This document shows, in pieces, positions 15,691-46,980 of a DNA stretch of 60,810 nt. This DNA comes from Cellulomonas cellasea (GTDB lineage: Bacteria; Actinomycetota; Actinomycetes; Actinomycetales; Cellulomonadaceae). The stretch's first letter is position 1, and every line of letters begins with the position of its first letter. Location: the NCBI RefSeq assembly GCF_006538745.1, contig NZ_BJLR01000043.1, positions 1 to 60,810 of the forward strand, in the 5' to 3' direction. The notes under the pieces were generated by a model. It searched no databases. It was given only the letters and a program-made list of their open reading frames with translations, and was not told where the DNA came from. Both the position numbers and the translations under genes were made by a program.

Positions 15691-15718
15691 CTCAACCCGT
15701 CCCCGCACGCGCCGATGG
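15691..15718 (+). promoter_or_regulatory. Sigma-28-type promoter for the first EAL-HDOD gene
   Basis: CTCA (15691-15694), 16-nt spacer, GCCGATGG (15711-15718). It matches the element before flagellar operons in this window, although it is about 9 kb from them. The predicted start of transcription is near 15725, leaving a leader of about 64 nt. Confidence 0.75.
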
Positions 15719-15788
15719 ACAGGAGGACCGGCCGACGTCGCCGGGAGCGCCGACCCCCGGCGCGCAGCCCACGTGCAGGAGTCCAGGG

Positions 15789-17045
15789 ATGACGCAGGCG
15801 CCGGTTCGGGTCGACCCGCGCCGCACCCACGAGGTCTGCATCGCGCGGCAGGGCATCCACGACCTCGTCGGGCGGCCCGTCGGCCACGAGCTGCTGTTCC
15901 GGCCCACCGCGAGCAGCACCGTCTCGGGCGTGCGTCCCGGCATCGACGACGACGAGGCGACCGCGACCGTCATCTCCGCGACGCTCGGCGAGTTCGGGGT
16001 GAGCGACGTCGCCGGGGACGGCCTGCTGTTCGTCAACGTCCCGCGCTCGTTCGTCGTCGGCTCGCTGCCCGTCGCGCTCGAGCCCGACCGCGTCGTGCTC
16101 GAGGTGCTCGAGCGGGTCCCGGCCGACGAGGAGGTCCTCGCCGGCGTGCGGGCGCTGCGCGAGCAGGGCTTCGCGATCGCGCTCGACGACTACGTGCCCG
16201 GCGACCACCGCGCGCCGCTGCTCGAGCTGTGCGACTACGTCAAGGTCGACATCGAGGACCTCGGCGACCGCCTCGCGGACTTCGCCGCGGAGCTGCGCGA
16301 GCAGTGGCCCGACGTGACGCTGATCGCCGAGCGCGTCGAGACCGAGGCCGACCTGGAGGCGGCCCACGCCGCGGGCTTCGACCTGTTCCAGGGCTGGTTC
16401 TTCCGCCGGCCCGTCGTCCTCACGCGGCCGGCGCTCGCGCACCACGCGCTCGTCGCGGGTCGCCTGCTCATCCGGCTCGGGGACCCGCAGGTGTCGTTCC
16501 GGGTCGTCGCGCGCCTGACCGCGGCCGACCCGTCGATCGCGCTCAAGGTCCTGCGCGTCGTGAACTCCGCGGCCGGCGCGGGCCGCCCCGTCCGCAACCT
16601 GCACCAGGCGCTCGTGCTCCTCGGGCGCGAGCGGTTCCGCGCGATGCTCATCCTCGAGATCCTCGTGACCGCCGGGCACCACGACGACGAGCTGCCGCTG
16701 CGCTCGCTCGCCCGCACCCGCGCCGCCGAGCTGCTCGCCCCCGGGGCGCCGCTCGAGGCGTCGACTGAGGAGCTCGTGCGCATCGTCTCGGAGCTGCTGC
16801 GGGTGCCCGTGAGCGAGCTCGACCCCGCGCTGCACCGCGCCCGCCCGAGCGCCGAGGCCCTCGGTGCGTGCGACGTCCTCGCCGCGTACCTCCAGGCGGT
16901 CGACGTCGACACGACGCCGGCGATCGGGGCGCCCTTCACGGCGCTCGACGTCTCGCACGCCTACCTCACGGGGGTCAAGGAAGCGCGGGCGCTGCTCGCG
17001 ACGGTCTTCTCGCCGGTCGAGCGCCCCGACGGCTGGGACGACTGA
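15789..17045 (+). CDS. EAL-HDOD signalling protein (YuxH/COG3434 type)
   Basis: 418 residues. The N-terminal half is an EAL-fold domain with HELLFRP in place of EAL, then LLFVNVPR, VVLEVLERV, IALDDYVPGD, YVKVDIEDL, AERVETEAD and LFQGWFFRRP. Several metal/c-di-GMP positions survive, but the signature Ala is Leu. The C-terminal half is an HDOD domain (RLLIRLGDPQVSF, SIALKVLRVVNSA, HQALVLLGRERFRAMLI). HDOD proteins are signalling scaffolds without the HD catalytic pair. AGGAG lies upstream of ATG 15789. A sigma-28-like promoter ties it to motility, so a c-di-GMP-linked role in swimming is plausible but unproven. Confidence 0.87.
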   Translation: MTQAPVRVDPRRTHEVCIARQGIHDLVGRPVGHELLFRPTASSTVSGVRPGIDDDEATATVISATLGEFGVSDVAGDGLLFVNVPRSFVVGSLPVALEPDRVVLEVLERVPADEEVLAGVRALREQGFAIALDDYVPGDHRAPLLELCDYVKVDIEDLGDRLADFAAELREQWPDVTLIAERVETEADLEAAHAAGFDLFQGWFFRRPVVLTRPALAHHALVAGRLLIRLGDPQVSFRVVARLTAADPSIALKVLRVVNSAAGAGRPVRNLHQALVLLGRERFRAMLILEILVTAGHHDDELPLRSLARTRAAELLAPGAPLEASTEELVRIVSELLRVPVSELDPALHRARPSAEALGACDVLAAYLQAVDVDTTPAIGAPFTALDVSHAYLTGVKEARALLATVFSPVERPDGWDD

Positions 17046-17182
17046 GCGCCGGCTGCGGCCGTCGCGTGCCCGGTGCGGGCCGGTCCGCCGCAGGCCCCGC
17101 CCGGGGGCGTCGGGTGCCGCGAGCACATCACGGGCAGGTAGCCTTGAGCGTTACGACATCCATCGACACCTCAGGGGTTGCA

Positions 17183-17566
17183 GTGCCCACCGGCAAGGTC
17201 AAGTGGTTCGACACCGAGCGCGGCTTCGGCTTCATCGCCAGCGACGCGGGTGACGAGGTGTTCCTGCACGCCTCGGCGCTGCCCGCGGGGGTCACCGCGC
17301 CCAAGCCCGGCACCAAGGTCGACTTCGGCGTGGCCGACGGGCGACGCGGCCCGCAGGCGCTGTCCGTGAAGTTCCTGGACCCGGTGCCGTCGGTCGTGAA
17401 GGCGACCCGCAAGCCCGCCGACGACATGGCGATCATCGTCGAGGACCTCATCAAGGTCCTCGACAAGGTCGGCAACGACCTGCGCCGTGGCCGCTACCCC
17501 GACAAGGCCGCCGGCGAGAAGTACGCGTCGCTGCTGCGTGCCGTCGCCGACAACCTCGAGGGCTGA
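17183..17566 (+). CDS. Cold-shock domain protein with C-terminal extension
   Basis: 127 residues. Residues 1-66 are a cold-shock domain with RNP1-like KWFDTERGFGFIA and RNP2-like DEVFLHASAL, binding single-stranded RNA or DNA. A further ~60 residues (DDMAIIVEDLIKVLDKVGNDLRRGRYPDKAAGEKYASL, given here as start and end of one helical segment) are unlike the short CspA proteins and are typical of the actinobacterial version next to DUF3027. GTG 17183 has AGGGG upstream. The next gene starts 1 nt after this stop, so the two are an operon. Confidence 0.92.
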   Translation: MPTGKVKWFDTERGFGFIASDAGDEVFLHASALPAGVTAPKPGTKVDFGVADGRRGPQALSVKFLDPVPSVVKATRKPADDMAIIVEDLIKVLDKVGNDLRRGRYPDKAAGEKYASLLRAVADNLEG

Positions 17567-17567
17567 C

Positions 17568-22788: not shown

Positions 22789-24012
22789 TCAGGCCGGGGC
22801 GGCGACCGCGAGCGCCGTCGCGGTCGCGAGCGCCTCGGGAACGACCGCGAGGCACGCCTGAGCGACGTCGTAGGGCTCGAGGCCCGTCGCCCGAACACCC
22901 TCGATGTCGTTCTCCTCGAGGGCCAGGACCGCGGCGAGCGCGGGCCCGTAGGGGCCGGAGAAGCTGCGCAGCGCGTCGGCGACGTCCGCGGACACCCCGG
23001 TGCGCTCGACGAGCTCGTCGACCGCGATGCGTTGGTGCGCCCCGACGGCGGAGAGCAGCCCGACGGTGTACGCGGCGTCGGCCCCGGTCACGGCCCGGCA
23101 GGACAGCGCGCGCGTGAGGATCGACCAGAGCGGGCCGATCGTCGTGGGCTGCGCGTCGATGAGCGAGGCCATCGCGACCGCGGAGAGCTGGTGGGGGCCC
23201 ACGAGCACGACGGCCTGGTGCACCGAGTCGACCTTGCGGCGCAGCGCGAACGTGCTCGCGTTGACCAGGTGCAGGACGCGCATGGCGAGCTCGGGGTCGG
23301 ACCCGACGGTGCGGACGACCGCGGCCTGGTCGATGTGGTTCTGCGTGAGGAGCTGCAGCAGCTCGAGGCACTGGAGCTCGCCCGCGGTGAGGCTGCGGCC
23401 CACGACCTCGGGGTCGCGCTCGAACATCGGGCCCTGGAGCATCTCGACGCCGAGGTCGAGGCCGGCCTTGATGCGCTCGCGGCTGTCGGCGCGCTCGGCG
23501 ATCACGAGCACGCCGGAGCCCTGGGCCCGCGCGACGAGCATCGCGAGCCGGTCGTAGCCGCGCCCGATGTCGATCTTGACGAAGTCCGCCTGGTCCAGCA
23601 GGGCGTCCTGCGCGACCGTGCCGGTGTAGTCGGCGAGCGCGATGCCGAAGCCGCGCTGGCGCGCGACGGCGACGAGGCCGGCGACGTCGGGGAGGTGGGT
23701 GAGCTCGGGCGTGACCTCCAGGACCACGCCGGACGACGGGCGCAGGAGCGCGACGTCGCCGAGCAGGATGCGGGGCGTGGCGCGCAGGAACACGACGTGG
23801 TCACCGGCGAGCCGCGGGAGGTCGAGCCGGGCGTACTCGGCGTCGGCGAACCCCGCGATCTCGTGCTCCGGGACGGCCTCGCCGGCCGGGTCGAGCGCGG
23901 CGACGCGGACGGCGTAGCCGTAGACGGACCGGTCGACGTAGACGACGGGCTGCCGCAGCACGCTGATCTCGCTCACGCGCGTGGGGGTGCCCGGGTCGTC
24001 GATGACGCTCAT
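22789..24012 (-). CDS. EAL-HDOD protein with degenerate EAL domain
   Basis: 407 residues with the same two-domain plan as the gene at 15789. In the EAL half the EAL motif reads GYAVRV, the DD pair is ALADYTG and only some lysines and glutamates remain (FVKIDIGRG, VIAERADSRERI, MLQGPMFERD), so phosphodiesterase activity is unlikely. The HDOD half (RVLHLVNASTFALRRKVDSV, shown as its first segment) is well preserved. AGGAGA lies 8 nt before ATG 24012. A sigma-28-like promoter in the 83-nt gap after fliW makes it a separate transcription unit of the motility regulon. It may act as a non-catalytic c-di-GMP or protein-binding scaffold. Confidence 0.86.
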   Translation of the reverse strand: MSVIDDPGTPTRVSEISVLRQPVVYVDRSVYGYAVRVAALDPAGEAVPEHEIAGFADAEYARLDLPRLAGDHVVFLRATPRILLGDVALLRPSSGVVLEVTPELTHLPDVAGLVAVARQRGFGIALADYTGTVAQDALLDQADFVKIDIGRGYDRLAMLVARAQGSGVLVIAERADSRERIKAGLDLGVEMLQGPMFERDPEVVGRSLTAGELQCLELLQLLTQNHIDQAAVVRTVGSDPELAMRVLHLVNASTFALRRKVDSVHQAVVLVGPHQLSAVAMASLIDAQPTTIGPLWSILTRALSCRAVTGADAAYTVGLLSAVGAHQRIAVDELVERTGVSADVADALRSFSGPYGPALAAVLALEENDIEGVRATGLEPYDVAQACLAVVPEALATATALAVAAPA

Positions 24013-24051: not shown

Positions 24052-24079
24052 CCATCGGCAGGCGACGGTCCCCGGTGAG
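24052..24079 (-). promoter_or_regulatory. Sigma-28-type promoter for the second EAL-HDOD gene
   Basis: On the minus strand: CTCA (24079-24076), 16-nt spacer, GCCGATGG (24059-24052). Transcription would start near 24045, giving a leader of about 33 nt with an AGGAGA site. Confidence 0.75.
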
Positions 24080-24095: not shown

Positions 24096-24530
24096 TCAGG
24101 CGAGCGGCGCGCGCAGCGGCCAGTCCTCGTCGACGACGGTCTGGACGGCGGCGCCCGTGACCGGGTCGACGACGAGCGGCGCGAGCAGGTTCGCGGTCGC
24201 GGGGTGCGGGCCGTCGGCGGGGTGCACGACGACGAGCAGGACGAGGCGCTCCGCGGGGCCGCCGACGGCCGCGACGGCGTCGGTCGAGACCGCCGGGGCG
24301 TAGTCGGGGAAGAACGGCTGCGGCACGACGACGAACAGGCGCACCGGCTGCGCGCCCGCGGCGGGCACGGAGCGGATCGCGTGCAGGACGCCGATGTCGT
24401 CGAGCGACGTGACGTCGAACTCGGTGTGCCCGGGCAGGCCCGGCAGCGGCTCGCGCAGGTGCAGCGTGGTGGGGACGTGCACGCCGGTGAACGGGTGCGC
24501 CTGGTGCTCGGTCACGGTGGTCTGGCTCAT
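24096..24530 (-). CDS. fliW: Flagellar assembly factor FliW
   Basis: 144 residues, the usual size. Recognisable family features are LPGLPGHTEF near the N-terminus, a central FVVVPQPFFPDYAP and the C-terminal NLLAPLVVDPVTGAAVQ. FliW binds flagellin and, when free of it, binds and inhibits CsrA, relieving repression of flagellin translation. Both partners are present in this window: fliC 4.4 kb away and csrA at 55880. ATG 24530 overlaps the flgL stop (ATGA), so it is the last gene of the flgN-flgK-flgL-fliW operon. Confidence 0.92.
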   Translation of the reverse strand: MSQTTVTEHQAHPFTGVHVPTTLHLREPLPGLPGHTEFDVTSLDDIGVLHAIRSVPAAGAQPVRLFVVVPQPFFPDYAPAVSTDAVAAVGGPAERLVLLVVVHPADGPHPATANLLAPLVVDPVTGAAVQTVVDEDWPLRAPLA

Positions 24531-25408
24531 CGCAGGAACTCCATCAGTGTCGGCTGCAGGACCTTGCCGGCCGCTCCGAGGGCGCCCTGGTAGGCGACCT
24601 CCTGCATCTGGAGCTCGAGGATGATGCCCGCGAGGTCGACGTCCTCGATCGCGGACAGCTGGGCCTTCGTGGACTGCTGGGTCTCCAGCAGCGTGCTCTG
24701 CGCGTCCTGCACGCGGTTCTGGCGCGCACCGACTCCGGAGACCTGCGTCAGCATCGACTCGAAGCGCGAGTCCATCGCGGCCAGGTGGGAGGTGACGTCG
24801 CCACCCGAGCGCAGGGTCGCGGAGACGGTCTCAAGGAGCGCGAACACCGAGCTCGCCCCCTCCCCGTACACGGCGGCACCGTCGGCGTCGACGCGCACCG
24901 AGGTGTTCTCCGCGACGCGGCGCTCGACACCCGACCCGGGTGTGCCGGTGAACACGTAGGTGTCGGTGAACGCGACGCCCGCGTCGGACGTCCCGGCGAA
25001 CACGCTCCGCCCCAGGTAGGACGTGTTGGCCTGCTCGAGCAGCGCCGCGCGCAGCCCGTCGACCTCCGCGGCGAGGGCCTCTCGGGACGTGGCGCCGAGC
25101 CCGCCGTTGCCGCCCTGGACCACGAGGTCGCGTGCACGGCGCATCGAGGTCAGCGACGACGTGAGCGCCGAGTCGACCGTCGTGAGCCAGCCGTTGCCGT
25201 CGTCCGCGTTGCGCGCGAACTGCGTCTGGGCCCGCTGCTCGCCGCGCAGGCGGAGCATGTCGGAGGCCCCGGCGGGGTCGTCCGAGGGGACGTTGATGTT
25301 CTTGCCGCTCGACATCTTCGCCTGCAGGTCCGCCATCTTCGACAGGTTCTGCTGCAGGTTCCCGAGCGTCGAGCGCTGGACCGTCTGGTGCGTCACGCGG
25401 TTGATCAC
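24527..25408 (-). CDS. flgL: Flagellar hook-filament junction protein FlgL
   Basis: 293 residues. It has a flagellin-like N-terminus (INRVTHQTVQRSTLGNLQQN, then MSSGKNINVPSDDP) and a C-terminal helix (VDLAGIILELQMQEVAYQGAL), which pack together in the axial structure. FlgL (HAP3) joins the hook to the filament above FlgK. Start GTG 25408 has GGAGG just upstream, overlapping the flgK stop region, and the gap to flgK is only 4 nt. FlgN, encoded at the head of the operon, is its predicted export chaperone. Confidence 0.93.
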   Translation of the reverse strand: MINRVTHQTVQRSTLGNLQQNLSKMADLQAKMSSGKNINVPSDDPAGASDMLRLRGEQRAQTQFARNADDGNGWLTTVDSALTSSLTSMRRARDLVVQGGNGGLGATSREALAAEVDGLRAALLEQANTSYLGRSVFAGTSDAGVAFTDTYVFTGTPGSGVERRVAENTSVRVDADGAAVYGEGASSVFALLETVSATLRSGGDVTSHLAAMDSRFESMLTQVSGVGARQNRVQDAQSTLLETQQSTKAQLSAIEDVDLAGIILELQMQEVAYQGALGAAGKVLQPTLMEFLR

Positions 25409-25412
25409 GGTG

Positions 25413-26846
25413 CTACCTCCCGACCACGCCGGTGCGGTTGATGAGTGTGTCGAGCATCTCGTCGATGGCGGTGAGGACCCGGGCGGCCCCCTCGTACGCG
25501 CGCTGGTACGCGAGCATGTTCACGGCTTCCTCGTCGGTGTCGACGCTGGCCTGGGAGAGCTGCTGCGCCGCGGCGGACGCGCGGGACGTCTCGGCGACGT
25601 TCGCGCGGGAGGCGGCGCTCGCGGTGCGGACCCCGAGGCTGACGACGGTGGCGCTCCAGCTTGCGTCGGGGCCGTCCTTCGCTGTGCCGAGCTTGGCGAG
25701 CGCGTCCCCGACCGAGCCGTCGAGCGGCCCCTTCGCGGGGTTGCCGACCGCCACGTGGCTCGGGTCGGTGATCGCCACGCGCAGTCCGAGCGCCGCGGGC
25801 TTGCCGGCGTCGATGGTGAAGAACGCACCGCCCGGGGTCGTGCCGTCGGCGCGCGTCGCGGTCGAGTGCAGCGCGTTGACCTGGGTCGTGATCCGGGTCG
25901 CGAGCGCGTCGTACGACGCGGCGGCCTCGGTGAGCATCCCGCCCGAGCCGGCCGGCGTCCCCGGGGGAGCGGTCACCGACAGCAGGCCCGCGACGCGGCC
26001 ACCGTCGAGCCCGACGGACAGGCCGGGCTTGCCGGCCCAGCCGACCGTGACCGCGGCGCCGCCGGTCGCCTGCGCGAACGTCGTCGCGCCGGTGACCTCG
26101 AGCGTCTTGGCCTTCGCGCCGTCGACGAGCGTGTTCCCGGCGACGTACACGTCGAGCTGGCCGTCGGGGCGCGTGCGGGTGGTCGCGCCCACGAGACCCG
26201 AGAGCTGCACGACGAGCTGGTCGCGCTGGTCGAGGAGCTCGTTCGCGGCAGCACCCGAGTTCGTGATCGCGAGGATGCGCGCGTTGAGGTCCGCGACGTT
26301 CGCCGCGGTCGTGTTCACCTGGTCGACGAGGCCCGCGGTCGTGGTGCGTGCGTGGGACCACTGCGACTCCGCGGCGTCGTAGAGCGACGCGACGCGGTCG
26401 ACGACGGCCTGCGCCGTCTCGAGCAGGACGGCACGTGCGGAGTCCTTGTCCGGGGTGTTCGACACGTCGCCGAACGCGCCCCAGAGGTTGCTGAGCTGCT
26501 TGGCGAGGCCGGTCGTCGACGGCTCGCCGACGCTCTTCTCGAGCTGCGTGTAGGCGGCGGACTGCGCGGCGAGGTAGGACGCGCCGGCCGTCTCGGTGCG
26601 CACGCGGGCGTCGAGGAAGGCGTCGCCGAGGCGCGAGACCCCGGTGACGTTCACGCCGAGCCCGACGCCGTCGGACGTCGAGAACATCGAGGCGACGCTG
26701 GCCGCGGGCAGCGCCGACATCGCGGCACGCTGGCGCGTGTAGCCGACGGTGTTGGCGTTCGCGACGTTCTGGCCCGAGACGTCGAGGGCCTGACGCTGGG
26801 CGATGAGCGAGCTCAGCGCGGTGCCGAGTCCGGAGAAGGTGCTCAC
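25413..26846 (-). CDS. flgK: Flagellar hook-associated protein FlgK
   Basis: 477 residues. The N-terminus has the axial-protein motif LDVSGQNVANANTVGYTRQR and the C-terminus has EEAVNMLAYQRAYEGAARVL, both required for assembly at the hook tip. The middle is variable. GTG 26846 is preceded by AAGGG, which overlaps the flgN stop codon. It is the second gene of the operon, following its chaperone gene by 10 nt. Confidence 0.95.
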   Translation of the reverse strand: MSTFSGLGTALSSLIAQRQALDVSGQNVANANTVGYTRQRAAMSALPAASVASMFSTSDGVGLGVNVTGVSRLGDAFLDARVRTETAGASYLAAQSAAYTQLEKSVGEPSTTGLAKQLSNLWGAFGDVSNTPDKDSARAVLLETAQAVVDRVASLYDAAESQWSHARTTTAGLVDQVNTTAANVADLNARILAITNSGAAANELLDQRDQLVVQLSGLVGATTRTRPDGQLDVYVAGNTLVDGAKAKTLEVTGATTFAQATGGAAVTVGWAGKPGLSVGLDGGRVAGLLSVTAPPGTPAGSGGMLTEAAASYDALATRITTQVNALHSTATRADGTTPGGAFFTIDAGKPAALGLRVAITDPSHVAVGNPAKGPLDGSVGDALAKLGTAKDGPDASWSATVVSLGVRTASAASRANVAETSRASAAAQQLSQASVDTDEEAVNMLAYQRAYEGAARVLTAIDEMLDTLINRTGVVGR

Positions 26847-26856
26847 TGGTTCCCTT

Positions 26857-27342
26857 TCAGAACGACCGGTCGAGCAGCTGCGCGCTGCGGTCGTGGGGCG
26901 TGCTGGCCATGCCCTGCACGTCGTAGGTCTGGACGGTGTCCTGCATCGTCATGAGCGTCTCCTGCGTCGCGCGGTGCGACATCGCGAGGAGCTCGCGGTT
27001 GCCGTCGGCGAGCTGGCCGATCTCGGCGGTGAGGGTCACGAACGCGTCGCGGTGCGCGCGCAGCAGCTCGTCCCACGGCGGGGGAGCGTGCTGGGAGATC
27101 TCGAGGAGGCTCGCACCGGGCTCCATGCCGAGCAGCGCGGCGACCTCGTCGGCCTCGACCGAGCGGCCGAGCTCGGCGTCGCGGATCTGCTCCAGCACGG
27201 TCTCGACCTCGCGGGTCGCGTGACCGAGCCAGCGGGTGCGCCCGCTCGTGAGGACGAGCTGCTCCTCCTCGAGCTTGAAGAGCAGGAGCTCCAGGAGGTG
27301 CCGTTCCTTCCACAGGACGTCGGACAGTCGGGCAAGGGCCAC
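26857..27342 (-). CDS. flgN: FlgN-type flagellar export chaperone
   Basis: 161 residues, mostly helical and rich in Leu/Glu (LSDVLWKERHLLELLLFKLE, LGHATREVETVLEQIRDAEL), matching FlgN, the cytosolic chaperone that keeps FlgK and FlgL export-competent. Sequence similarity within the family is low, so context (directly before flgK and flgL) carries much of the call. GTG 27342 has a good GGAGG site. It heads the leftward operon, about 60 nt downstream of the predicted transcription start. Confidence 0.83.
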   Translation of the reverse strand: MALARLSDVLWKERHLLELLLFKLEEEQLVLTSGRTRWLGHATREVETVLEQIRDAELGRSVEADEVAALLGMEPGASLLEISQHAPPPWDELLRAHRDAFVTLTAEIGQLADGNRELLAMSHRATQETLMTMQDTVQTYDVQGMASTPHDRSAQLLDRSF

Positions 27343-27409: not shown

Positions 27410-27437
27410 CTATCGGCCGGCGTGCCCGCATGCTGAC
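27410..27437 (-). promoter_or_regulatory. Sigma-28-type promoter of flgN-flgK-flgL-fliW
   Basis: On the minus strand: GTCA (27437-27434), 16-nt spacer, GCCGATAG (27417-27410). The -10 is the closest in the window to the classical GCCGATAA. Predicted transcription start near 27403. Confidence 0.75.
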
Positions 27438-30052: not shown

Positions 30053-30107
30053 CCTGAGGGCTGACCACGCGGGGTGACCCTCCGCGCAGCCCGCACAGCA
30101 CCACACG

Positions 30108-31605: not shown

Positions 31606-31634
31606 CCGCCTCCCGACCACCGAAGGACACAGCC

Positions 31635-37230: not shown

Positions 37231-38570
37231 GCGCGCTGAGCTTCGCCCCGCACGCCGTCACGTCCGCGTGGGACCGTGCGCTCGGCGCGAGCGCGCCCGA
37301 GGTCGTCGGCACCGTGCGCGGCGTGGTCGGGCTCACCGTCGAGATCGCCGGGACCGGCTCCGCCGTGGGCGACCTCGTCGAGATCGACCTCGAGGACGGC
37401 ACGCGCGTGCCGGCCGAGGTCGTCGCCGCGCAGGGCCCGTCCGCGCGCTGCATGCCGCTCGGCCCCACGCACGGCCTGCGCGCCGGGATGCGCGTGCGCC
37501 CGACGGGCGCCGAGCTGACGGCACCGGTCGGCCACGGTCTGCTCGGGCGGGTCCTCGACGGGCTCGGCCGGCCCATCGACGGCAAGGGCCCGCTGCGCGC
37601 CGACGCGTACGTCGGGGTCAACGGCACCGCGCCGCACCCGCTCGAGCGTGCCCGCGTCGACGCCCCGCTCGACCTGGGCGTGCGCGTGCTCGACACGCTC
37701 GTCACGGTCGGCCGCGGCCAGCGCATGGGCCTGTTCGCGGGCTCGGGCGTCGGCAAGTCGAGCCTGCTGTCGATGGTCGCGCGCGGCACCGACGCCGAGG
37801 TCTCCGTGATCGCCCTCGTCGGCGAGCGCGGGCGTGAGGTCCGCGAGTTCCTCGAGGACGATCTGGGGCCCGAGGGCCTGGCCCGCAGCGTCGTCGTCGT
37901 CGCGACGTCCGACGAGCCGCCGCTCGTGCGCCTGCGCTCCGCGTTCGTCGCGACCCGCATCGCGGAGCACTTCCGCGACGGCGGCAGCGACGTCGTGCTG
38001 ATGATGGACTCCCTGACCCGCGTCGCCATGGCGCAGCGCGAGATCGGCCTCTCGGTCGGCGAGCCGCCCGCGACGCGCGGCTACCCGCCGAGCACGTTCG
38101 CGCTGCTCGCCCAGCTGCTCGAGCGCGCCGGCACGGCGTCGAGCGGCTCGGTCACCGGGATCTACACCGTCCTCGTCGACGGCGACGACCACAACGAGCC
38201 CATCGCCGACGCCGCGCGCTCGATCCTCGACGGCCACGTCGTGCTCGACCGCCGCCTCGCCGTCCAGGGCCACTTCCCGAGCGTCGACGCGCTCGGCTCG
38301 ATCTCCCGCGTGGCGTCCCGGGTCACGACGCGCGAGCAGCGCGACCTGGCGACCCGGCTGCGGTCGGTCATGGCCGCGCGCCGCCAGGCGCAGGACCTGC
38401 TCGACGTCGGCGCGTACGTCCCGGGCAGCAACCCGCTCGTCGACGCGGCCGTGACGCACCGTCAGGCGATCGACGCGTTCCTGCAGCAGGACCTCGCCGA
38501 CGCCGCCGGGTCGCACGACTCGTGGCAGCGGCTCGCCGCGCTCGTCGCCGCGATGGGGCCGCTGTCATGA
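37227..38570 (+). CDS. fliI: Flagellum-specific ATPase FliI
   Basis: 447 residues. An F1-beta-like ATPase: Walker A GLFAGSGVGKSSLL (Lys177), VIALVGERGREVREFLEDD, Walker B VVLMMDSLTRVAMAQREIGL, and the family-specific TRGYPPSTFALLAQLLERAG. It powers and energises the type III export apparatus with FliH and FliJ, which flank it. The start overlaps fliH in ATGA. Confidence 0.97.
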   Translation: MSALSFAPHAVTSAWDRALGASAPEVVGTVRGVVGLTVEIAGTGSAVGDLVEIDLEDGTRVPAEVVAAQGPSARCMPLGPTHGLRAGMRVRPTGAELTAPVGHGLLGRVLDGLGRPIDGKGPLRADAYVGVNGTAPHPLERARVDAPLDLGVRVLDTLVTVGRGQRMGLFAGSGVGKSSLLSMVARGTDAEVSVIALVGERGREVREFLEDDLGPEGLARSVVVVATSDEPPLVRLRSAFVATRIAEHFRDGGSDVVLMMDSLTRVAMAQREIGLSVGEPPATRGYPPSTFALLAQLLERAGTASSGSVTGIYTVLVDGDDHNEPIADAARSILDGHVVLDRRLAVQGHFPSVDALGSISRVASRVTTREQRDLATRLRSVMAARRQAQDLLDVGAYVPGSNPLVDAAVTHRQAIDAFLQQDLADAAGSHDSWQRLAALVAAMGPLS

Positions 38571-39019
38571 GCCGCACCTTCCGCCTCGCGAGCCTGCTGC
38601 GCCTGCGGTCGGCGGCCGAGGAGCGCGCCGCCGTCGAGCTCGCCGACGCCGCCCGGCTGCGGGCGCGCGCCGAGGCCCGCCGGCACGACACCGAGGTCCA
38701 GCTCGGCTCGGCCGCGATGCCCGCGCACTCCGACGAGCTGCACTTCCGTGCGGCCGTCGCGGCGCGCGTGTCGCTCAGCGGCCTGCTCGCCGAGCGCACG
38801 GTCGAGGTCCGCGTCGCGGACGACGGCGTCGACCAGGCGCACGCGGTCTGGGCGAGCGCCAAGGCCCGCGCCCGTGCCCTGGAGAAGCTCGAGGAGAAGC
38901 ACGACGCCGAGGTCCGCGCCGAGGACGAGCGCGCCGAGCAGCTCGTGCTCGACGAGGTCGCCGGGCAGGCCGCGCGCCGCGCCGCGCTGCGGGCGGGCAC
39001 CCCGGAGGTGACCCGGTGA
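38567..39019 (+). CDS. fliJ: FliJ-type export chaperone/ATPase stalk protein
   Basis: 150 residues, almost entirely charged coiled coil: it starts RTFRLASLLRLRSAAEERAA and continues through ALEKLEEKHDAEVRAEDERA. FliJ forms the central stalk of the FliI hexamer. Divergent in sequence, but start motif, size, coiled coil and position directly after fliI agree. ATGA overlap with fliI and GTGA overlap with the next gene. Confidence 0.87.
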   Translation: MSRTFRLASLLRLRSAAEERAAVELADAARLRARAEARRHDTEVQLGSAAMPAHSDELHFRAAVAARVSLSGLLAERTVEVRVADDGVDQAHAVWASAKARARALEKLEEKHDAEVRAEDERAEQLVLDEVAGQAARRAALRAGTPEVTR

Positions 39020-39741
39020 CCGGGATCGCCGCCGTCCAGGCCCGCATGAGCGAGCTCGACCGCCTCGTCGCGCCGCAGCCGGTCGTGCCGCGCACGACGT
39101 CGGCCGTCCTGCCGGCCGTCGCGCCGACCACCCGCACAGCAGGCCTGGGGGGCCCCGGGACCGGGACGTCCGACGCGACGTTCGCCGCCGCGCTCGCCGC
39201 GCTCGGGGTCGACGCCGGCTCCCTCGGCCTCGCGGCCACCGCCGCTTCCGCCCCGGCGGCGCCGGCCGCTGCGGCCACTGCGTCCGGTCCGACCGGCGCG
39301 AGCCTCGTCGAGGCCGCGACGAAGTACGTCGGCACGCCCTACGTGTGGGGTGGGGAGTCGCTCGCCGAGGGCGGCCTCGACTGCTCGGGCCTCGTGCTGC
39401 GGTCGCTCGCCGACCTCGGCGTGACCGACGTCCCGCGCACCGCGCGCCAGCAGATGACCCTGGGCACCCCGGTGGCCTCGCTCGACGACGCGCGGCCGGG
39501 CGACCTGGTCGTCTTCGGCGGCGGGACGCACATCGGCATCTACGTGGGCGACGGCCGGATGGTCGACGCGCCCAAGCCCGGCCAGGACGTCACCGTCCGC
39601 GACGTGTACACGACCCCGACGGCGATCCGCCGGGTCCTGCCAGCAGAAGGAGCAGCGCCGGTGAGCGCCACCACGACCGCCCAGGGGGCCGCCGCCGACG
39701 CCGCGGCGTTCGCCGCACGCCTCGCGGGGGTGACCGCGTGA
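39016..39741 (+). CDS. NlpC/P60 peptidoglycan hydrolase within the flagellar operon
   Basis: 241 residues. The N-terminal ~90 residues are Ala/Thr/Pro-rich with no signal peptide seen. A C-terminal NlpC/P60 domain (about 95-205) shows YVGTPYVWGGESLAEGGLDC with Cys123 in DCSGLV, His172 in THIGIYVG, and RPGDLVVFGG. The third catalytic position is probably near DAPKPG. Enzymes of this fold cut gamma-D-Glu-diaminopimelate or related bonds. Lying between fliJ and fliK with 4-nt overlaps on both sides, and with no FlgJ in the cluster, it is likely the wall-opening enzyme for rod growth, perhaps exported by the flagellar apparatus itself. Confidence 0.85.
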   Translation: MTGIAAVQARMSELDRLVAPQPVVPRTTSAVLPAVAPTTRTAGLGGPGTGTSDATFAAALAALGVDAGSLGLAATAASAPAAPAAAATASGPTGASLVEAATKYVGTPYVWGGESLAEGGLDCSGLVLRSLADLGVTDVPRTARQQMTLGTPVASLDDARPGDLVVFGGGTHIGIYVGDGRMVDAPKPGQDVTVRDVYTTPTAIRRVLPAEGAAPVSATTTAQGAAADAAAFAARLAGVTA

Positions 39742-41123
39742 CCGCGCTGACGATGGCGGGGGCGCCCGCGTCGACCGCGACGAGCAGCACGCGCAGCCCC
39801 GCACGCACGAGCGCGGGAGCGCCGCGCGACGCGTTCGACCAGGTCCTGCGCAGCGAGATCGGCGACCGGTCCGCGCGCCCCGACCCGAGCACGCGCCCGG
39901 CGGGGGAGCCCGGCCCGGCCCGGACCGGCGCAGCGACCCGCTCGGGTCAGCCCCAGGGCCGTCCCGACGACGCGGCGCGGGCCGACTCCTCCGCGAGCGC
40001 CCCCGCGGCCCCCGCGGCCGGGACGGCGGACGGCGCCGGTGCGCCGGACGCGACCGCCATCGCGGACGGCGGCCCGGTCGTGACGCCGCCGACCCCGCTC
40101 GACGCGGCCGCCGCCGCGCTGCAGCTCGCCGTCGCCGCGGCCGAGGCGACGTCCGCCGCGACCGCCACGGCGACCGGCACGGCGTCCGGCACGGCGACCA
40201 CCGGCACGGCGACCGGCGCGCTCGACCTGCTCGGGGCACCGGCGACCGACGCGACCGCGACCACGGCCTCGGCTGCCGCAGCGGCCGCCGCCGGGCAGGC
40301 GTCCGTGACGGCGACCCCGGCGACCGGCGCACCCGCGCCCACCGCGCCCGGGACCCCGGCGACCGCGCCCGCGACCGTCCCGACGGCCGACGGCTCCGCG
40401 TCGGGCACCGCACCGTCCCCGGCGCCCGCACCCGCCGCCGCACCGGAGGCCGCCCGCACCGCCGGCCCCGCCGCCCCGGCCGCGGCAGCCACCGCCGACC
40501 TCGCGCCGACCGCGGACCCGCGCACGGTCCGCGACGCCGCGGCGCTCCCGGTGACCCTCACGACCGCCTCGACCCCCGCCCCCCAGCCCGTCGCCCCGGC
40601 GGTCGGCGGGGTCGTCGCCCCCGACGCCGCGGCGGCCACGGCCGCACCGGCCGCCGCGCGCGGCACCGAGCAGGCACCGGCCCCCGCCCCGCAGGTCCCG
40701 CTCGCCGAGCAGCTCGGCGCGCGCCTGGCCTCGGTGCGCGGCCTCGGCGCCGGGCAGCACGTGCTCACGCTCGCGGTCGACCCGGAGCACTTCGGGCCGG
40801 TCCGCGTCGTCGCGCACATCACCCCGGACGCGGTCCGCATCGAGCTCCTCGGCGCGACCGACCAGGCCCGCGAGGCGCTCAAGGGCTCGCTCGCCGACCT
40901 GCGCCGTGACCTCGCCTCGGCCGGCCTCGACGCCGACCTCCAGCTCGGCTCGCGCGACCCCGGCCAGCAGGCCGGCGCGCAGGCCGACGCCCGCCGCGAC
41001 GCGCTCGCCGCGCGCTCCGCCGCCACCCGCGCCGGCTCGGACCCGTCCGACGCGGCCTCCGACGTCCCCGCCCGACCCGCGTCGCCCGCCAACCCGGCCG
41101 GCACGCTCGACCTCCTCGCCTGA
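39738..41123 (+). CDS. fliK: Flagellar hook-length control protein FliK
   Basis: 461 residues. The first ~310 are extremely Ala/Thr/Pro-rich, fitting an extended molecular ruler. The C-terminal Flg_hook domain (about 320-410) has LAEQLGARLASVRGLGAGQH, then LTLAVDPEHFGPVRVVAHI and LADLRRDLASAGLDADLQL. FliK measures hook length and switches FlhB from hook to filament substrates. Low-complexity coding is expected to vary in length between strains. Followed by flgD after 12 nt. Confidence 0.88.
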   Translation: MTALTMAGAPASTATSSTRSPARTSAGAPRDAFDQVLRSEIGDRSARPDPSTRPAGEPGPARTGAATRSGQPQGRPDDAARADSSASAPAAPAAGTADGAGAPDATAIADGGPVVTPPTPLDAAAAALQLAVAAAEATSAATATATGTASGTATTGTATGALDLLGAPATDATATTASAAAAAAAGQASVTATPATGAPAPTAPGTPATAPATVPTADGSASGTAPSPAPAPAAAPEAARTAGPAAPAAAATADLAPTADPRTVRDAAALPVTLTTASTPAPQPVAPAVGGVVAPDAAAATAAPAAARGTEQAPAPAPQVPLAEQLGARLASVRGLGAGQHVLTLAVDPEHFGPVRVVAHITPDAVRIELLGATDQAREALKGSLADLRRDLASAGLDADLQLGSRDPGQQAGAQADARRDALAARSAATRAGSDPSDAASDVPARPASPANPAGTLDLLA

Positions 41124-41135
41124 CCAGGGAGCACC

Positions 41136-41588
41136 ATGACCATCGACGTGTCCTCCGCCTACGGAGCGCAGGCCGCAGGCGCCACCCCGCCCGCCAAGGC
41201 CGCGACCAAGGAGCTCGACAAGCAGGCGTTCCTGCAGCTTCTCACCACCCAACTCCGCAACCAGGACCCCAGCTCGCCGATGGACAGCTCGGACCTGATG
41301 GCCCAGACGACCCAGATGACGACCATGGAGCAGCTGATCGAGCTCACCACGACCTCGCGCGAGAGCTTCTCGCTGCAGATGCGCATGGCCGCCGCGAACC
41401 TCGTCGGCAAGGACGTCACGTACACCGGCGCCGACGGGAAGGTCGCGACGGGCACCGTCTCGGCCGTCTCGTACGCAGGCGCCGTACCCGCCGTGAAGGT
41501 GGGGGACATGGAGGTCCCCCTCGACTCGGTCGCGAGCGTCACCGCACCCGCGGTGCCCACCACGCCCACGACCACCCCAGCCTCCTGA
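41136..41588 (+). CDS. flgD: Flagellar hook assembly (capping) protein FlgD
   Basis: 150 residues, at the short end for FlgD. The N-terminal motif KQAFLQLLTTQLRNQDPSSP with MDSSDLMAQTTQMTTMEQL is diagnostic. The C-terminal part is a short beta region (GKDVTYTGADGKVATGTVSA) without the full FlgD Ig-like domains. It caps the growing hook and is later replaced by FlgK. AGGGAG lies before ATG 41136. Confidence 0.94.
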   Translation: MTIDVSSAYGAQAAGATPPAKAATKELDKQAFLQLLTTQLRNQDPSSPMDSSDLMAQTTQMTTMEQLIELTTTSRESFSLQMRMAAANLVGKDVTYTGADGKVATGTVSAVSYAGAVPAVKVGDMEVPLDSVASVTAPAVPTTPTTTPAS

Positions 41589-41626
41589 CGCGCGAGCGTC
41601 GCACCCACCACCGAAAGGGACCTCCC

Positions 41627-42811
41627 ATGCTCCGCTCGCTCTTCTCCGGCATCTCGGGCCTCCGCAGCCACCAGACGATGCTCGACGTGACCGGCAACAA
41701 CATCGCCAACGTCAACACCACGGGCTTCAAGGCCTCGCAGGTGCAGTTCCAGGACACCCTGAGCCAGGTCGTGCAGAACGCCGGCGGCGCGCAGGCCGGC
41801 AACGGTGGTACCAACCCGGCGCAGGTCGGCCTCGGCGTCAAGGTCGCCGGCATCACCACGAACTTCACGCAGGGCGCCTCGCAGCTCACGGGCCGCAGCA
41901 CCGACATGATGATCCAGGGCGACGGCTTCTTCATGGTTCGCAAGGGCGCCGAGACGTTCTACACGCGCGCCGGGTCGTTCGACTTCGACGCGACCGGCCA
42001 GATGGTGCTCCCCGGCGAGGGCGCGCTCGTGCAGGGCTGGCTCGCCGGCCCCGGCGGGACGATCGACACCAACGGCCCGGTCAGCGACCTGAGCGTGCCC
42101 GCGGGCCGGCTCATGGAGGCCAACGCGTCGACCGAGGCGGTCTTCGGCGGCAACCTCAAGGCCGACGCCGCGGTGGGCACCTCGCTGGAGCGCGTCGTGC
42201 AGCTGTTCGACGAGACCGGCAACGCGCGCGAGCTCGCCCTGACGTTCACCAAGGGCGCGGCGGGCTGGACGATGTCCGCGACCGACGGCACGTCGACGTA
42301 CCCGACGACGCCGCTCGTCTTCGACGCCACCACGGGCGCCCTGACGTCGCCGCGGACGTTCGCGGTCGGCGCGGTCACGGTCGACCTGAGCACCGTCTCG
42401 GGCTTCGCGGGCGTCGACACGATCGCCAAGAAGAGCCAGGACGGCTACGCCGCCGGGACGCTCGAGTCGTTCGCGCTCGCCGCGGACGGCACGATCACCG
42501 GCTCGTTCAGCAACGGGCTCAAGCAGGCCATCGGCAAGCTCGCGATGGGCAGCTTCACCAACCCGGCCGGCCTGTCCAAGGCGGGCGGCTCGCTCTACCG
42601 GACGAGCGTCAACTCGGGCGACGCGCAGATCGGCGCCGCGGGCACGGGCGGCCGCGGCAGCCTCGCGGGCGGCGCGCTCGAGATGTCGAACGTCGACCTG
42701 TCGAGCGAGTTCACGAACCTCATCGTCGCCCAGCGCGGCTTCCAGGCGAACTCACGCGTCATCACGACGTCCGACGAGCTGCTCCAGGAGCTCGTCAACC
42801 TCAAGCGCTGA
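41627..42811 (+). CDS. flgE: Flagellar hook protein FlgE
   Basis: 394 residues. N-terminal MLRSLFSGISGLRSHQTMLD with VTGNNIANVNTTGFKASQVQ, the FlgE/F/G central motif MIQGDGFFMVRKGAETFYTR, and C-terminal LSSEFTNLIVAQRGFQANSR. It polymerises into the hook. Last gene of the flgB operon; AAAGGGA upstream of ATG 41627 and a strong terminator after the stop. Confidence 0.96.
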   Translation: MLRSLFSGISGLRSHQTMLDVTGNNIANVNTTGFKASQVQFQDTLSQVVQNAGGAQAGNGGTNPAQVGLGVKVAGITTNFTQGASQLTGRSTDMMIQGDGFFMVRKGAETFYTRAGSFDFDATGQMVLPGEGALVQGWLAGPGGTIDTNGPVSDLSVPAGRLMEANASTEAVFGGNLKADAAVGTSLERVVQLFDETGNARELALTFTKGAAGWTMSATDGTSTYPTTPLVFDATTGALTSPRTFAVGAVTVDLSTVSGFAGVDTIAKKSQDGYAAGTLESFALAADGTITGSFSNGLKQAIGKLAMGSFTNPAGLSKAGGSLYRTSVNSGDAQIGAAGTGGRGSLAGGALEMSNVDLSSEFTNLIVAQRGFQANSRVITTSDELLQELVNLKR

Positions 42812-43847: not shown

Positions 43848-44206
43848 CTGGGTCTCCTTGCGAGCGGCGCTGCACGGCGCAGCGGCATCGACGTCCACGC
43901 CCCGGTGGCTCGGCGTCGAGCCCGGGGCCGGTGCGGGCGGTGCCAGCACACCGGACGCACGTTGCCGGTCCGCGCGCGGCGTGTGACGCCGCGGTCAACT
44001 TCTGTTCACGCGCGAGGCGGCCCTCCTGTGAGACCGCGCGCGCGCACCCCGGACGGACGGACGGCCGCGCGCGTAGGAGGCGCGCGTCGCCGGGCAGCCC
44101 CCGGGCGGGACGCCTCACAAAGCGGGACCCCGTGCCGATCAGGGCAGAGAACGACGACAAGGCCTATGGACGGGCCGGACGACGAAGAGAACCAGGGACG
44201 GTGGCT
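43848..44206. other. Divergent intergenic region before flbD
   Basis: 359 bp with no gene I can support. It contains the flbD-motA promoter at 44114-44141 and a short GGCGT/ACGCC hairpin at 43978-43990. The promoter of the transporter gene on the other strand must also lie here, but I cannot identify it with confidence. Confidence 0.6.
44114..44141 (+). promoter_or_regulatory. Sigma-28-type promoter of flbD-motA-motB-fliL
   Basis: CTCA (44114-44117), 16-nt spacer, GCCGATCA (44134-44141). Predicted start near 44148, leader about 59 nt. Confidence 0.78.
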
Positions 44207-44542
44207 GTGATTGTCGTGACGCGCCTCAACGGGCCGCAGTTCGGGGTGAACCCGGACCTGCTGCTGCGCATCGACAGCGCCCCGGACACCATCCTCACCC
44301 TCATCGACGGCACGAAGTACATCGTCGAGGAGTCGATGGCCGAGGTCATCGACTCGATCCGCGAGCACCGCGCCCAGCTCCTGGCCCGCGCGCAGGACCT
44401 GCACACCGGTCCCGCCGCCGACGCCACCCACGCGCCGCTCCACGAGGTCGGCTCGCGCACCGCCACCCCGGCACCGCGCACGGGTGCGCACGACGCGCCC
44501 CTCGCCCAGCCGGTCCCGATCCGCCCGAGGGGGAACCGCTGA
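44207..44542 (+). CDS. flbD: FlbD family flagellar protein
   Basis: 111 residues from GTG 44207, chosen because family members begin (M)IVVTRLNG; the frame is open to GTG 44201 as well. The core IVVTRLNGPQFGVNPDLLLR with ILTLIDGTKYIVEESMAEVI is the whole conserved SwrD/FlbD domain. In Bacillus SwrD increases motor torque, and the position just before motA fits. The C-terminal ~45 residues are an Ala/Pro/His-rich extension absent from typical 70-residue members. Confidence 0.9.
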   Translation: MIVVTRLNGPQFGVNPDLLLRIDSAPDTILTLIDGTKYIVEESMAEVIDSIREHRAQLLARAQDLHTGPAADATHAPLHEVGSRTATPAPRTGAHDAPLAQPVPIRPRGNR

Positions 44543-45309
44543 TGGATCCCGCCGGCCTCATCGGCATCGTGGTCGCGTTCGGCGCGATCTTCGGCGCGCT
44601 GCTCCTCGAGGGCGCCGACCCGATGTCCATCTTCCTGCCCGCGCCGCTCCTGCTCGTCTGGGTCGGCACGATCGGGGTCGGCGTCGCCGGCCACACGATG
44701 AAGGACGTCGTCGCGTCGTTCAAGGCGGTCCCGCGCGCCATGCGCAGCAAGGCCCCGGACCCGGCCGCCGCGGTCGAGACGATCGTCGACCTCGCCGACC
44801 GGGCCCGCCGGGAGGGCCTGCTCGCGCTCGAGGACGCCGCGCGCGACATCGACGACCAGTTCCTGCGCAGCGGGCTCCAGGCCGCGATCGACGGCACCGA
44901 CCCCGAGGACCTGCGCACGATCCTGGACGACAAGATCGCGACCAAGCGCACCGCGGACCGCGTGCACGCCAAGTACTTCGCCGACATGGGCGGCTACGCG
45001 CCGACCATCGGCATCATCGGCACGGTCATCTCGCTCGTGCACGTGCTCGAGAACCTGTCCGACCCCTCGGCCCTCGGCCACTCGATCGCGGCGGCGTTCG
45101 TCGCGACGTTGTGGGGCATCCTCTCGGCGAACGTCGTGTGGCTGCCGATCGGTGCGCGCATCAAGCGCATCTCGGACCTCGAGTGCACGCAGATGGAGGT
45201 CACCGTCGAGGGGCTCCTCGCGGTGCAGGCCGGCGCGAACCCGCGACTGGTCGGCGAGCGCCTGCGCAGCCTCCTGCCCGAGCAGGCCCCGAGCGAGGCA
45301 GCGGCGTGA
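44542..45309 (+). CDS. motA: Flagellar motor stator protein MotA
   Basis: 255 residues. Four membrane helices: two near the N-terminus (GLIGIVVAFGAIFGALLLEG; PLLLVWVGTIGVGVAGHTMK) and two near 150-205 (GGYAPTIGIIGTVISLVHVL; AAAFVATLWGILSANVVWLP) with the conserved prolines. The cytoplasmic loop carries charged residues facing FliG. With MotB it forms the proton channel that generates torque. TGATG overlap with flbD. Confidence 0.95.
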   Translation: MDPAGLIGIVVAFGAIFGALLLEGADPMSIFLPAPLLLVWVGTIGVGVAGHTMKDVVASFKAVPRAMRSKAPDPAAAVETIVDLADRARREGLLALEDAARDIDDQFLRSGLQAAIDGTDPEDLRTILDDKIATKRTADRVHAKYFADMGGYAPTIGIIGTVISLVHVLENLSDPSALGHSIAAAFVATLWGILSANVVWLPIGARIKRISDLECTQMEVTVEGLLAVQAGANPRLVGERLRSLLPEQAPSEAAA

Positions 45310-46283
45310 GCGCCCCCGCCGCGACGCGCCCGAAGGGCGGGACGTCGAGCCACGGCTCGAGCGCGCACGCCACCAAGAGCGCGCCCCGGCGGAGGCACAA
45401 GGGCGGCCACGAGGAGGAGCACGTCAACCACGAGCGCTGGCTCGTGAGCTACTCCGACATGATCACGGTCCTCATGGCGCTGTTCATCGTGCTGTTCGCG
45501 ATCAGCCAGGTCGACCAGCAGAAGTACGTCGAGCTGCGCGACTCGCTCGCGGCCGGGTTCAACACGAGCTCGAACCCGTCGATCCTCGACGGCACGTCGG
45601 GCACGCTCGACGGCCAGAGCATCGAGCCGAAGACGTCGGCCGCCCAGGGCACCGCCGGGATGGTGAACGCGGACGCGGGCCTCGGCCAGCAGGGCGCGAA
45701 CCCGTCGCCCCCGCGGGTCGCCGCCGACCCGGACCCGCCGGGGGTCGACCCCGAGGTCCTCGCGGCCGCGCAGGCCGAGGCGGCGCGGCTCCAGGGCCTG
45801 CGCGACCAGCTCGCGGCGCAGCTCGCCGCGAACGGGCTCGGTGACACCGTGCGCTTCCGCATCAACGAGCGCGGGCTCGTCATGGGCCTCGTGGCCGACG
45901 ACGTGTTCTTCGCCGCCGCGAGCGCCGTGCTCACGCCGACCGCGGCGCGCGTGCTCGACGTCTCGGGCCCGACACTCGTCGCGATCCCGGAGAACGTCTC
46001 GGTCGAGGGGCACGCCAACACCGTGCCCGTGTCCGGCCGCTACCCGACCAACTGGGAGCTGTCGTCCGACCGCGCGACGCAGGTGCTCCGGCACCTCGTC
46101 GAGGCCGACGGCATGCCCGCGAACCGCATCATGGCCGTCGGCTTCGGCGACGCCCGCCCGCTCGTGGCGGGCGACGGCCCCGAGGCGCTCACGGCGAACC
46201 GCCGTGTCGACCTCGTCATCCTCAGCAGCGCGCCGGAGCAGGTCCGCAACCTGCTGCCGGCCGTCCTCGGAACGGAGGGGTAG
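45306..46283 (+). CDS. motB: Flagellar motor stator protein MotB
   Basis: 325 residues. A basic cytoplasmic N-terminus (RRRHKGGHEEEHVNHERW), one membrane helix with the proton-binding Asp51 (YSDMITVLMALFIVLFAISQ), a plug/linker, and a C-terminal OmpA/MotB domain (VSVEGHANTVPVSGRYPTNW, ELSSDRATQVLRHLVEADGM, NRRVDLVI) that anchors to peptidoglycan. GTGA overlap with motA. The Asp and helix are compatible with a proton-driven motor. Confidence 0.95.
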   Translation: MSAPAATRPKGGTSSHGSSAHATKSAPRRRHKGGHEEEHVNHERWLVSYSDMITVLMALFIVLFAISQVDQQKYVELRDSLAAGFNTSSNPSILDGTSGTLDGQSIEPKTSAAQGTAGMVNADAGLGQQGANPSPPRVAADPDPPGVDPEVLAAAQAEAARLQGLRDQLAAQLAANGLGDTVRFRINERGLVMGLVADDVFFAAASAVLTPTAARVLDVSGPTLVAIPENVSVEGHANTVPVSGRYPTNWELSSDRATQVLRHLVEADGMPANRIMAVGFGDARPLVAGDGPEALTANRRVDLVILSSAPEQVRNLLPAVLGTEG

Positions 46284-46285
46284 AG

Positions 46286-46819
46286 ATGCCCATCGAGCAG
46301 CGTGTGATGTCGTCCCCCGGCAAGATCGGGGCCCGCAACCCGGCCGGCAAGATCGGCGCGAAGACGCCGGCCCCCGCCGAGGAGGAGGCCCCCGCGAAGG
46401 GCGGGAAGAAGAAGCTCCTGATCATCGTGCTCGCCGCGGTGCTCGTGCTCGGCGGCGCCGCCGCCTGGTACTTCCTGATGGGGCCCGGTCACGCCACGGA
46501 GGGCGAGGCGCACGCCGAGCCCGAGCCCGAGCCGGGCGCGGTCCTGACCGTCGAGCCGATCAGCGTCAACCTCGCCGCGGGCCACTACCTGCGCATCGGC
46601 CTCGGGCTGCAGATGACCATCGACGCGGGCGGCCACGGCGAGCCGGACCCGTCCAAGGCCGTCGACCTGATGATCGCCAAGTTCTCCGGCCGTGACATGG
46701 CGGCCGTCTCCGACCCCGCGACCCGCGACGCGCTCAAGGCCGAGCTGCTCGCCGAGATCGAGGAGGCCTACCACGGGGAGGTGATGGACCTCTACCTGAC
46801 GAACTACGTCACGCAGTAG
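46286..46819 (+). CDS. fliL: Flagellar basal body-associated protein FliL
   Basis: 177 residues. A basic cytoplasmic tail with two KIGA repeats precedes one membrane helix (KKLLIIVLAAVLVLGGAAAW) and an extracytoplasmic FliL domain (VEPISVNLAAGHYLRIGLGL then FSGRDMAAVSDPATRDALKA). FliL rings surround and stabilise the stator. It starts 2 nt after motB and is followed by a weak stem-loop and a new promoter. Confidence 0.93.
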   Translation: MPIEQRVMSSPGKIGARNPAGKIGAKTPAPAEEEAPAKGGKKKLLIIVLAAVLVLGGAAAWYFLMGPGHATEGEAHAEPEPEPGAVLTVEPISVNLAAGHYLRIGLGLQMTIDAGGHGEPDPSKAVDLMIAKFSGRDMAAVSDPATRDALKAELLAEIEEAYHGEVMDLYLTNYVTQ

Positions 46820-46832
46820 CACCGCTGCTGCC

Positions 46833-46851
46833 CCCGGCTGCCACAGCCGGG
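46833..46851 (+). terminator. Weak stem-loop after fliL
   Basis: CCCGGCTG (46833-46840), 3-nt loop, CAGCCGGG (46844-46851). Only 8 bp and no U-tract, so read-through into fliM is likely. A GGCGCC/GGCGCC pair follows at about 46859-46876. Confidence 0.5.
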
Positions 46852-46952
46852 TCGTTCGGGGCGCCATGGAGGGCGCCGCACCGCTCCGTCGTACGCGTCG
46901 GCCCAGGACGGGCCGTGGGCGGAGATGTTCACCCAGCCGGCTCAACGAGTTC

Positions 46953-46980
46953 CTCACATCCCGGCGCGGACCGCCGATGA
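46953..46980 (+). promoter_or_regulatory. Sigma-28-type promoter overlapping the fliM start
   Basis: CTCA (46953-46956), 16-nt spacer, GCCGATGA (46973-46980). The -10 box contains the ATG at 46977. Transcription from it would begin near 46987-46989, at an in-frame GTG. Confidence 0.72.

Follow-up and report, generated by a model that had tools for sequence, protein, structure and literature searches.

The question raised by this locus is what reads the eight copies of a two-part box, CTCA and (G/C)CCGAT separated by 16-17 nt, that lie along the flagellar cluster of Cellulomonas cellasea, and how far their reach extends. The window analysed here is the whole stretch of 60,810 nucleotides that holds the cluster. 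A sequence-only reading had taken the boxes for sigma-28-type promoters that define a motility regulon. Our results make it very likely that they are promoters of this type, read by an RNA polymerase holoenzyme carrying the FliA-like sigma factor encoded at 27806-28687, and they place genes well beyond the flagellum behind the same signal.

Boxes and genes of the window

A pattern search of the window located all eight boxes at the coordinates and on the strands listed earlier by eye:

15691..15716, plus strand: CTCA-N16-GCCGAT, 72 nt ahead of an EAL-HDOD gene
24054..24079, minus strand: CTCA-N16-GCCGAT, 41 nt ahead of a second EAL-HDOD gene
27412..27437, minus strand: GTCA-N16-GCCGAT, 69 nt ahead of flgN
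27770..27796, plus strand: fliA box, CTCA-N17-CCCGAA, 9 nt ahead of a GTG start
28804..28829, plus strand: CTCA-N16-CCCGAT, 59 nt ahead of fliC
32619..32644, plus strand: CTCA-N16-CCCGAT, 83 nt ahead of flgB
44114..44139, plus strand: CTCA-N16-GCCGAT, 61 nt ahead of flbD
46953..46978, plus strand: CTCA-N16-GCCGAT, overlapping the first called fliM ATG and 10 nt ahead of the GTG at 46989

The presence of the eight boxes is confirmed. Six are exact copies of CTCA-N16-(G/C)CCGAT, the number claimed, the other two being those at 27770 (N17, CCCGAA) and at 27437 on the minus strand (GTCA), and each of the eight precedes a gene on its own strand, as had been proposed. In 200 dinucleotide-preserving shuffles of the window, the strict form CTCA-N16-SCCGAT occurs 0.21 times on average (maximum 2) against 6 in the window, and CTCA-N15-17-SCCGAW 1.1 times (maximum 5) against 7, in agreement, as far as the window goes, with the earlier judgement that eight boxes at unit heads are very unlikely to arise by chance. 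The loosest form, STCA-N15-17-SCCGAW, has 10 matches (shuffled mean 2.4, maximum 8), eight of which are the boxes above; the remaining two (6157 plus, 33121 minus) sit in genes called on the opposite strand.

The genes of the window that concern us are as follows:

15789..17045, plus strand: EAL-HDOD gene, a degenerate-looking c-di-GMP/HDOD signalling protein (gene call, Pfam)
22789..24012, minus strand: second EAL-HDOD gene (Pfam; EAL match under the curated cut-off)
24096..27342, minus strand: flgN-flgK-flgL-fliW unit (Pfam)
27806..28687, plus strand: fliA, a divergent sigma-28-type sigma factor (Pfam; start placed from the conserved box geometry)
28889..32090, plus strand: fliC, fliD and fliS (fliC by Pfam; fliD and fliS named by eye and homology search)
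32728..42811, plus strand: flgB to flgE stretch (flgB, fliH, an NlpC/P60 gene and flgD by Pfam; others by eye)
42939-43949, minus strand: formate/nitrite transporter gene (Pfam), between flgE and flbD within the flagellar cluster
44201..46819, plus strand: flbD, motA, presumed motB and fliL (flbD and motA by Pfam; the last two by order)
46989..55819, plus strand: fliM and downstream export genes (fliM by Pfam; export genes by eye)
55880-56203: csrA-like gene, after fliM and the export genes

Pfam backs the names flgN, flgK, flgL, fliW, the sigma factor, fliC, fliH, NlpC/P60, flgB, flgD, flbD, motA, fliM and the two EAL-HDOD genes, and the remaining flagellar names rest on inspection by eye, homology search or gene order. 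The gene starts are our own approximate calls, and the called start overlaps a box in a few cases. One of these is fliM, where the ATG at 46977 chosen by the gene caller overlaps the -10 box, so that a later start, such as the GTG at 46989 (10 nt after the box), is likely. The boxes head every flagellar unit that can be delimited, and since early and late units alike are boxed, no tiers are visible. Both EAL-HDOD genes near the cluster own a box, and their orthologues in the genus-mate G120 keep both. By eye, CTCATC ... GATGAG form an inverted repeat that nearly flanks the fliC box (28804-28832).

The -35 and -10 words

The -10 core is (G/C)CCGAT in seven of the eight window boxes and CCCGAA in the eighth, which upholds the proposed match to the sigma-28 consensus. 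The -35 word is CTCA in seven and GTCA in one, and the TAAA by which a sigma-28-type promoter would be recognised is found in none. The longer form of the classical flagellar promoter is CTAAAGT. Base statistics were drawn from the 33 intergenic sites (first gene caller) among 61 outside the window: two positions after CTCA a G is found in 70%, and at the next position a T in 39%; the -10 ends in T in 76%, with G directly behind it in 61% and A one position further on in 45%, the trailing AA being usually absent. CTCA-n-G-T thereby aligns with CTAAAGT at equal spacing, CTCA-N16 corresponding to C-TAAA-N15, and a literal CTAAAG stands before fliA in one relative (L134). CTCA therefore looks like a variant of the classical CTAAA -35 in register, with one base changed from A to C. 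The earlier description of the -35 as CTCA rather than TAAA holds for seven boxes, but the two words do not appear unrelated, given this register and the CTTA and CTAA words of relatives described below. The consensus given for sigma-28/WhiG promoters in PMC8325347 is TAAA and GCCGATAA. The CCCGAW form has 34 genomic matches, 31 of them outside the window, and none of these 31 is found ahead of a GGDEF or MCP match.

Two sigma factors of the FliA/WhiG family

Two proteins encoded in the genome score strongly as FliA/WhiG family members: the window sigma and a WhiG orthologue beside rpsB. The former had been placed in the middle of the cluster as a FliA/WhiG-type gene, and Pfam regions and a family match at 27806-28687 bear this out: sigma regions 2, 3 and 4 are present (Pfam), and FliA and WhiG chains in the PDB match. 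Its score of 164.7 bits falls under the curated cut-off of NCBIfam TIGR02479 (189.6), and on sequence it is accordingly described as a member of a divergent FliA-like clade. The closest FliA sequences found are from Cellulomonas, at up to 78% identity, in a search that may leave out close kin of the window; a Kineococcus origin, considered at first in view of PMC2587704, was set aside on these grounds. The WhiG orthologue (G000:C19:183616-184296, L091) scores 264.5 bits, and its reading frame is broken by a TAG before the recognition helix. A nonsense mutation and a sequencing error are both possible, the latter because none of the other WhiG-level matches listed, including that of G120, has a stop.

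A tree parts the actinobacterial FliA proteins from WhiG and other FliA proteins (100/99), its root being arbitrary and its long branches carrying warnings. Of the 39 FliA-type rows, 34 have SQ(L/M)R in the recognition helix and five have SQ(Q/H/I)R, whereas all 39 WhiG rows read (S/C)Q(I/M/L)H. The E. coli FliA of PDB 6pmi has SQLH. Arginine thus appears to accompany the CTCA clade and histidine the described TAAA readers, a correlation only, as most rows have no tested promoter. The window's divergent FliA is the probable reader of the boxes. FlgM is said to be absent from the flagellated actinobacteria sequenced by 2008 (PMC2587704) and from WhiG-bearing actinobacteria by 2013 (PMC4255298).

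Genome-wide counts and site position

CTCAN{15,17}GCCGAW matches the 4.73 Mb genome at 65 places, 24 of them inside genes, and the reversed pattern does so at 23. This excess seemed strong at first and was dropped as evidence, because the same ratio is found in relatives with or without FliA: across 39 relatives the median forward/reversed ratio is 2.6 for the 23 in which a FliA-like sigma matches at 150-181 bits and 2.3 for the other 16 (p 0.38). By this ratio the genome itself ranks 13th, and 118 class members look similar by eye for motif counts. The suggestion that motif frequency, checked by a whole-genome count, would bear on the regulon does not survive this comparison. The count is uninformative, and it is the position of the sites that carries the evidence.

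Position was assessed with CTCAN{16,17}GCCGAT, a site being taken as in promoter position when it is intergenic and no more than 150 nt ahead of a start on its own strand, under one G+C-adaptive gene caller. By this measure 29 of 46 sites qualify in the genome (reversed pattern, 1 of 23) and 37 of 61 in G120, against 5 of 20 in G140 (FliA, no WhiG), and 1 of 21 in G138 (FliA, no WhiG, 57% G+C). G127, which has WhiG but no FliA, gives 3 of 17, and G132, with neither sigma, 0 of 24. An earlier gene caller, weak in lower-G+C genomes, gave 27/46, 33/61, 5/20, 0/21, 1/17 and 0/24 in the same order. G138 speaks against a simple rule from FliA to position; lower-G+C genomes may use other -35 words. 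Each of the two genomes with FliA alone retains an exact box at a relevant gene, 81 nt ahead of flbD in G140 and 48 nt ahead of a cheA-like gene in G138.

Conservation before orthologous genes

Window proteins were placed on 39 loci of FliA relatives (from 80 found), counting copies with tblastn above 60 bits, and for each gene the best box was sought between 260 nt ahead of it and 45 nt into it. Among the unit heads fliC (16/23), flgB (15/17) and flgN (17/29), 48 of 69 copies are preceded by a box with no more than one mismatch, against 2 of 115 copies of the operon-internal fliW, flgL, flgK, flgC and fliF (Fisher p 5e-25). Of these 48 boxes, 43 stand 45-95 nt before the gene, with outliers at -32, 36, 132 and 187 for flgN and -4 for flgB. 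Ahead of flgN, 6 relatives also have the GTCA variant. Jonesia (L145) and Timonella (L149), whose G+C is 58-59%, show CTAA, CTTA and TTCA among the best boxes ahead of flgN, fliC, flgB and fliD, words biased by the choice of the best box for its likeness to CTCA; the same search found no good box before flgB in L145 or flgN in L149. In the Actinoplanes loci examined, nothing apart from FliA homologues matched the flagellar proteins of the window, and no Actinoplanes box could be confirmed in them.

Closer to home, 21 of the 29 promoter-position sites have a G120 orthologue with an exact box. The spacers of box pairs average 71% identity, and in 14 of the 21 pairs the called spacing between box and start differs by no more than 5 nt. 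A gene identified by eye as cheB-like has GTCGAT as its -10 in the genome (L360) and GCCGAT in G120 (L276), both 46 nt from the start, and GTCGAT is here a natural -10 variant.

A leaderless-looking geometry at fliA

The arrangement CT(C/A)A-N17-n(C/A)CGAn-N9-start recurs in 12 of 14 fliA rows of the Cellulomonas-like set (the window, L129-L138, L144, L148 and L150) and in none of the 25 other fliA rows. The fliA box deviates from the others in its N17 spacer and in its last -10 base, which is A, G or C. A sigma-28 transcript is expected to start about 9 nt after the -10, so messages whose start codon stands 9 nt after the box probably begin at that codon. This geometry suggests a leaderless fliA mRNA and autoregulation.

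The same offset is seen at other genes. Exactly 9 nt separate GCCGAT from a following ATG at 4 of 34 intergenic sites in the genome and 7 of 45 in G120, against about 0.8% per other offset, and at none of 24 sites in G132; the p values (1e-4 and 7e-8) are flattering, as the offset was chosen after the distribution had been seen and some sites are orthologous pairs, and it is the fliA rows that back a leaderless class independently. A GTG 10 nt after the box occurs at 4 sites in each of the two genomes and was left uncounted, because GTG is common at this G+C.

Reach beyond the flagellum

Among the 35 GGDEF matches of the genome, 12 are preceded, at a distance of up to 2.5 kb, by a box on their own strand, against 1 with the strands flipped and 0.6 expected. 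Taking called genes and open frames together, the box heads the GGDEF-holding gene in ten of the 12, which include one weak GGDEF match (28 bits, C17:180415) and one box inside another gene (C9:231838). Boxes of at most one mismatch stand 31-48 nt before the start of four of the seven MCP genes, and a fifth such box precedes the cheB-like gene, which adjoins an MCP gene. Others precede a gene for a PilB-type ATPase with an MshEN domain, a GAF-MCP gene, a SpoIIE phosphatase gene, a PP2C gene, and LuxR- and MerR-type regulators. Some of the 27 outside genes run on Pfam are unmatched or metabolic-looking, for example an E1 dehydrogenase component, and the boxes before these may be chance.

The term motility regulon is therefore apt for the flagellar units and too narrow for the whole, which takes in GGDEF, chemoreceptor, pilus ATPase and regulator genes. 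Of the enrichment proposed as a check before flagellar, chemotaxis and signalling genes, the GGDEF genes (12/35) give an instance, and the genome-wide count provides no test of it.

Discussion

The sigma-28-type reading is supported by the agreement between where the sites lie, the constant distances seen in other families, the boxes kept before orthologues while their spacers diverged, and the kinds of gene that follow. On the mechanism we propose, a holoenzyme with the FliA-like sigma would read the eight boxes and express the flagellar units jointly, with sigma region 2 reading (G/C)CCGAT and region 4 an extended -35 whose commonest form is CTCA-n-G-T. The fliA gene would drive itself from the box 9 nt before its start, giving a leaderless mRNA and positive feedback. 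Pilus, chemotaxis and c-di-GMP genes would be co-induced with swimming through the same boxes.

The WhiG orthologue beside rpsB might instead read the boxes wholly or in part, leaving FliA a subset. It is the better match to the family, 3 of the 17 sites of G127, which has WhiG alone, are in promoter position, and in Rubrobacter WhiG drives pilus and c-di-GMP genes (PMC8325347). Yet this genome's own whiG is interrupted ahead of the recognition helix, if the stop is not a sequencing error, the exact boxes before flbD in G140 and the cheA-like gene in G138 persist where FliA is the only one of the two, and WhiG is described with TAAA (PMC8325347), so that we consider this reading unlikely.

That the boxes are sites of a transcription regulator rather than elements contacted by sigma seems very improbable. 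Two short words at near-fixed spacing could be half-sites, but the boxes are consistently oriented to the gene, their spacers run to 15-17 nt, the -10 word is that of sigma-28, the -35 is in register with CTAAA, and start codons peak at 9 nt. Chance matches in G+C-rich DNA would accord with genome-wide counts no higher than in relatives without FliA and with the 24 of 65 matches inside genes; shuffles, positions and conservation make this scarcely credible for the window, although single distant sites may be chance. Reading by the window's FliA-like sigma is thus the explanation we prefer.

The boxes yield a list of targets and a concrete link between motility and c-di-GMP. They also allow transcription starts to be predicted to the base for fliA and several other genes, and one helix residue, arginine versus histidine, emerges as a candidate for the change from TAAA to CTCA. 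More speculatively, the FliA/WhiG family may have split in flagellated actinobacteria into a WhiG branch with histidine and TAAA and a FliA branch with arginine and CTCA, sharing one -10 word, with a FliA that feeds itself through a leaderless mRNA, has no flagellar checkpoint, and controls the flagellum, the motor of the pilus and roughly one in three GGDEF genes. We put this forward tentatively, as a doubtful possibility; if true, swimming and the signal that ends swimming would be induced together.

Comparison with known systems

FliA-dependent promoters of Actinoplanes missouriensis, attributed to Jang et al. 2016, reportedly have the consensus CTCA-N15-17-GCCGAA; our literature search, with most subscription papers outside its reach, found no FliA paper printing it. 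The boxes described here would share with these reported promoters the CTCA -35, the 15-17 nt spacer, the GCCGA core and the flagellar operons. They would differ in a last -10 base that is mostly T, a Cellulomonas-like host, many GGDEF genes and a leaderless-looking fliA. Flagellar, pilus and MCP genes rise together in A. missouriensis, according to PMC11960193.

Set beside classical sigma-28/WhiG promoters, as given in PMC8325347, the boxes have the same -10 core, in-register spacing and following G-T, but CTCA in place of CTAA, and the last two -10 bases are usually not AA. The WhiG regulon of Rubrobacter radiotolerans, described in the same paper, likewise has a sigma factor of this family in control of genes for type IV pili and c-di-GMP turnover; it differs in its TAAA boxes, in the use of WhiG rather than FliA, and in transcription starts that were mapped there. 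The motility island of Kineococcus radiotolerans (PMC2587704) is similar in gene content and order around fliA, with csrA nearby, and the section consulted leaves regulation open and gives no promoter motif. The boxes are most likely of a known kind, sigma-28 promoters, and what may be new is their extension to Cellulomonas-like hosts, their reach into c-di-GMP signalling, the leaderless fliA geometry and the arginine/histidine correlate.
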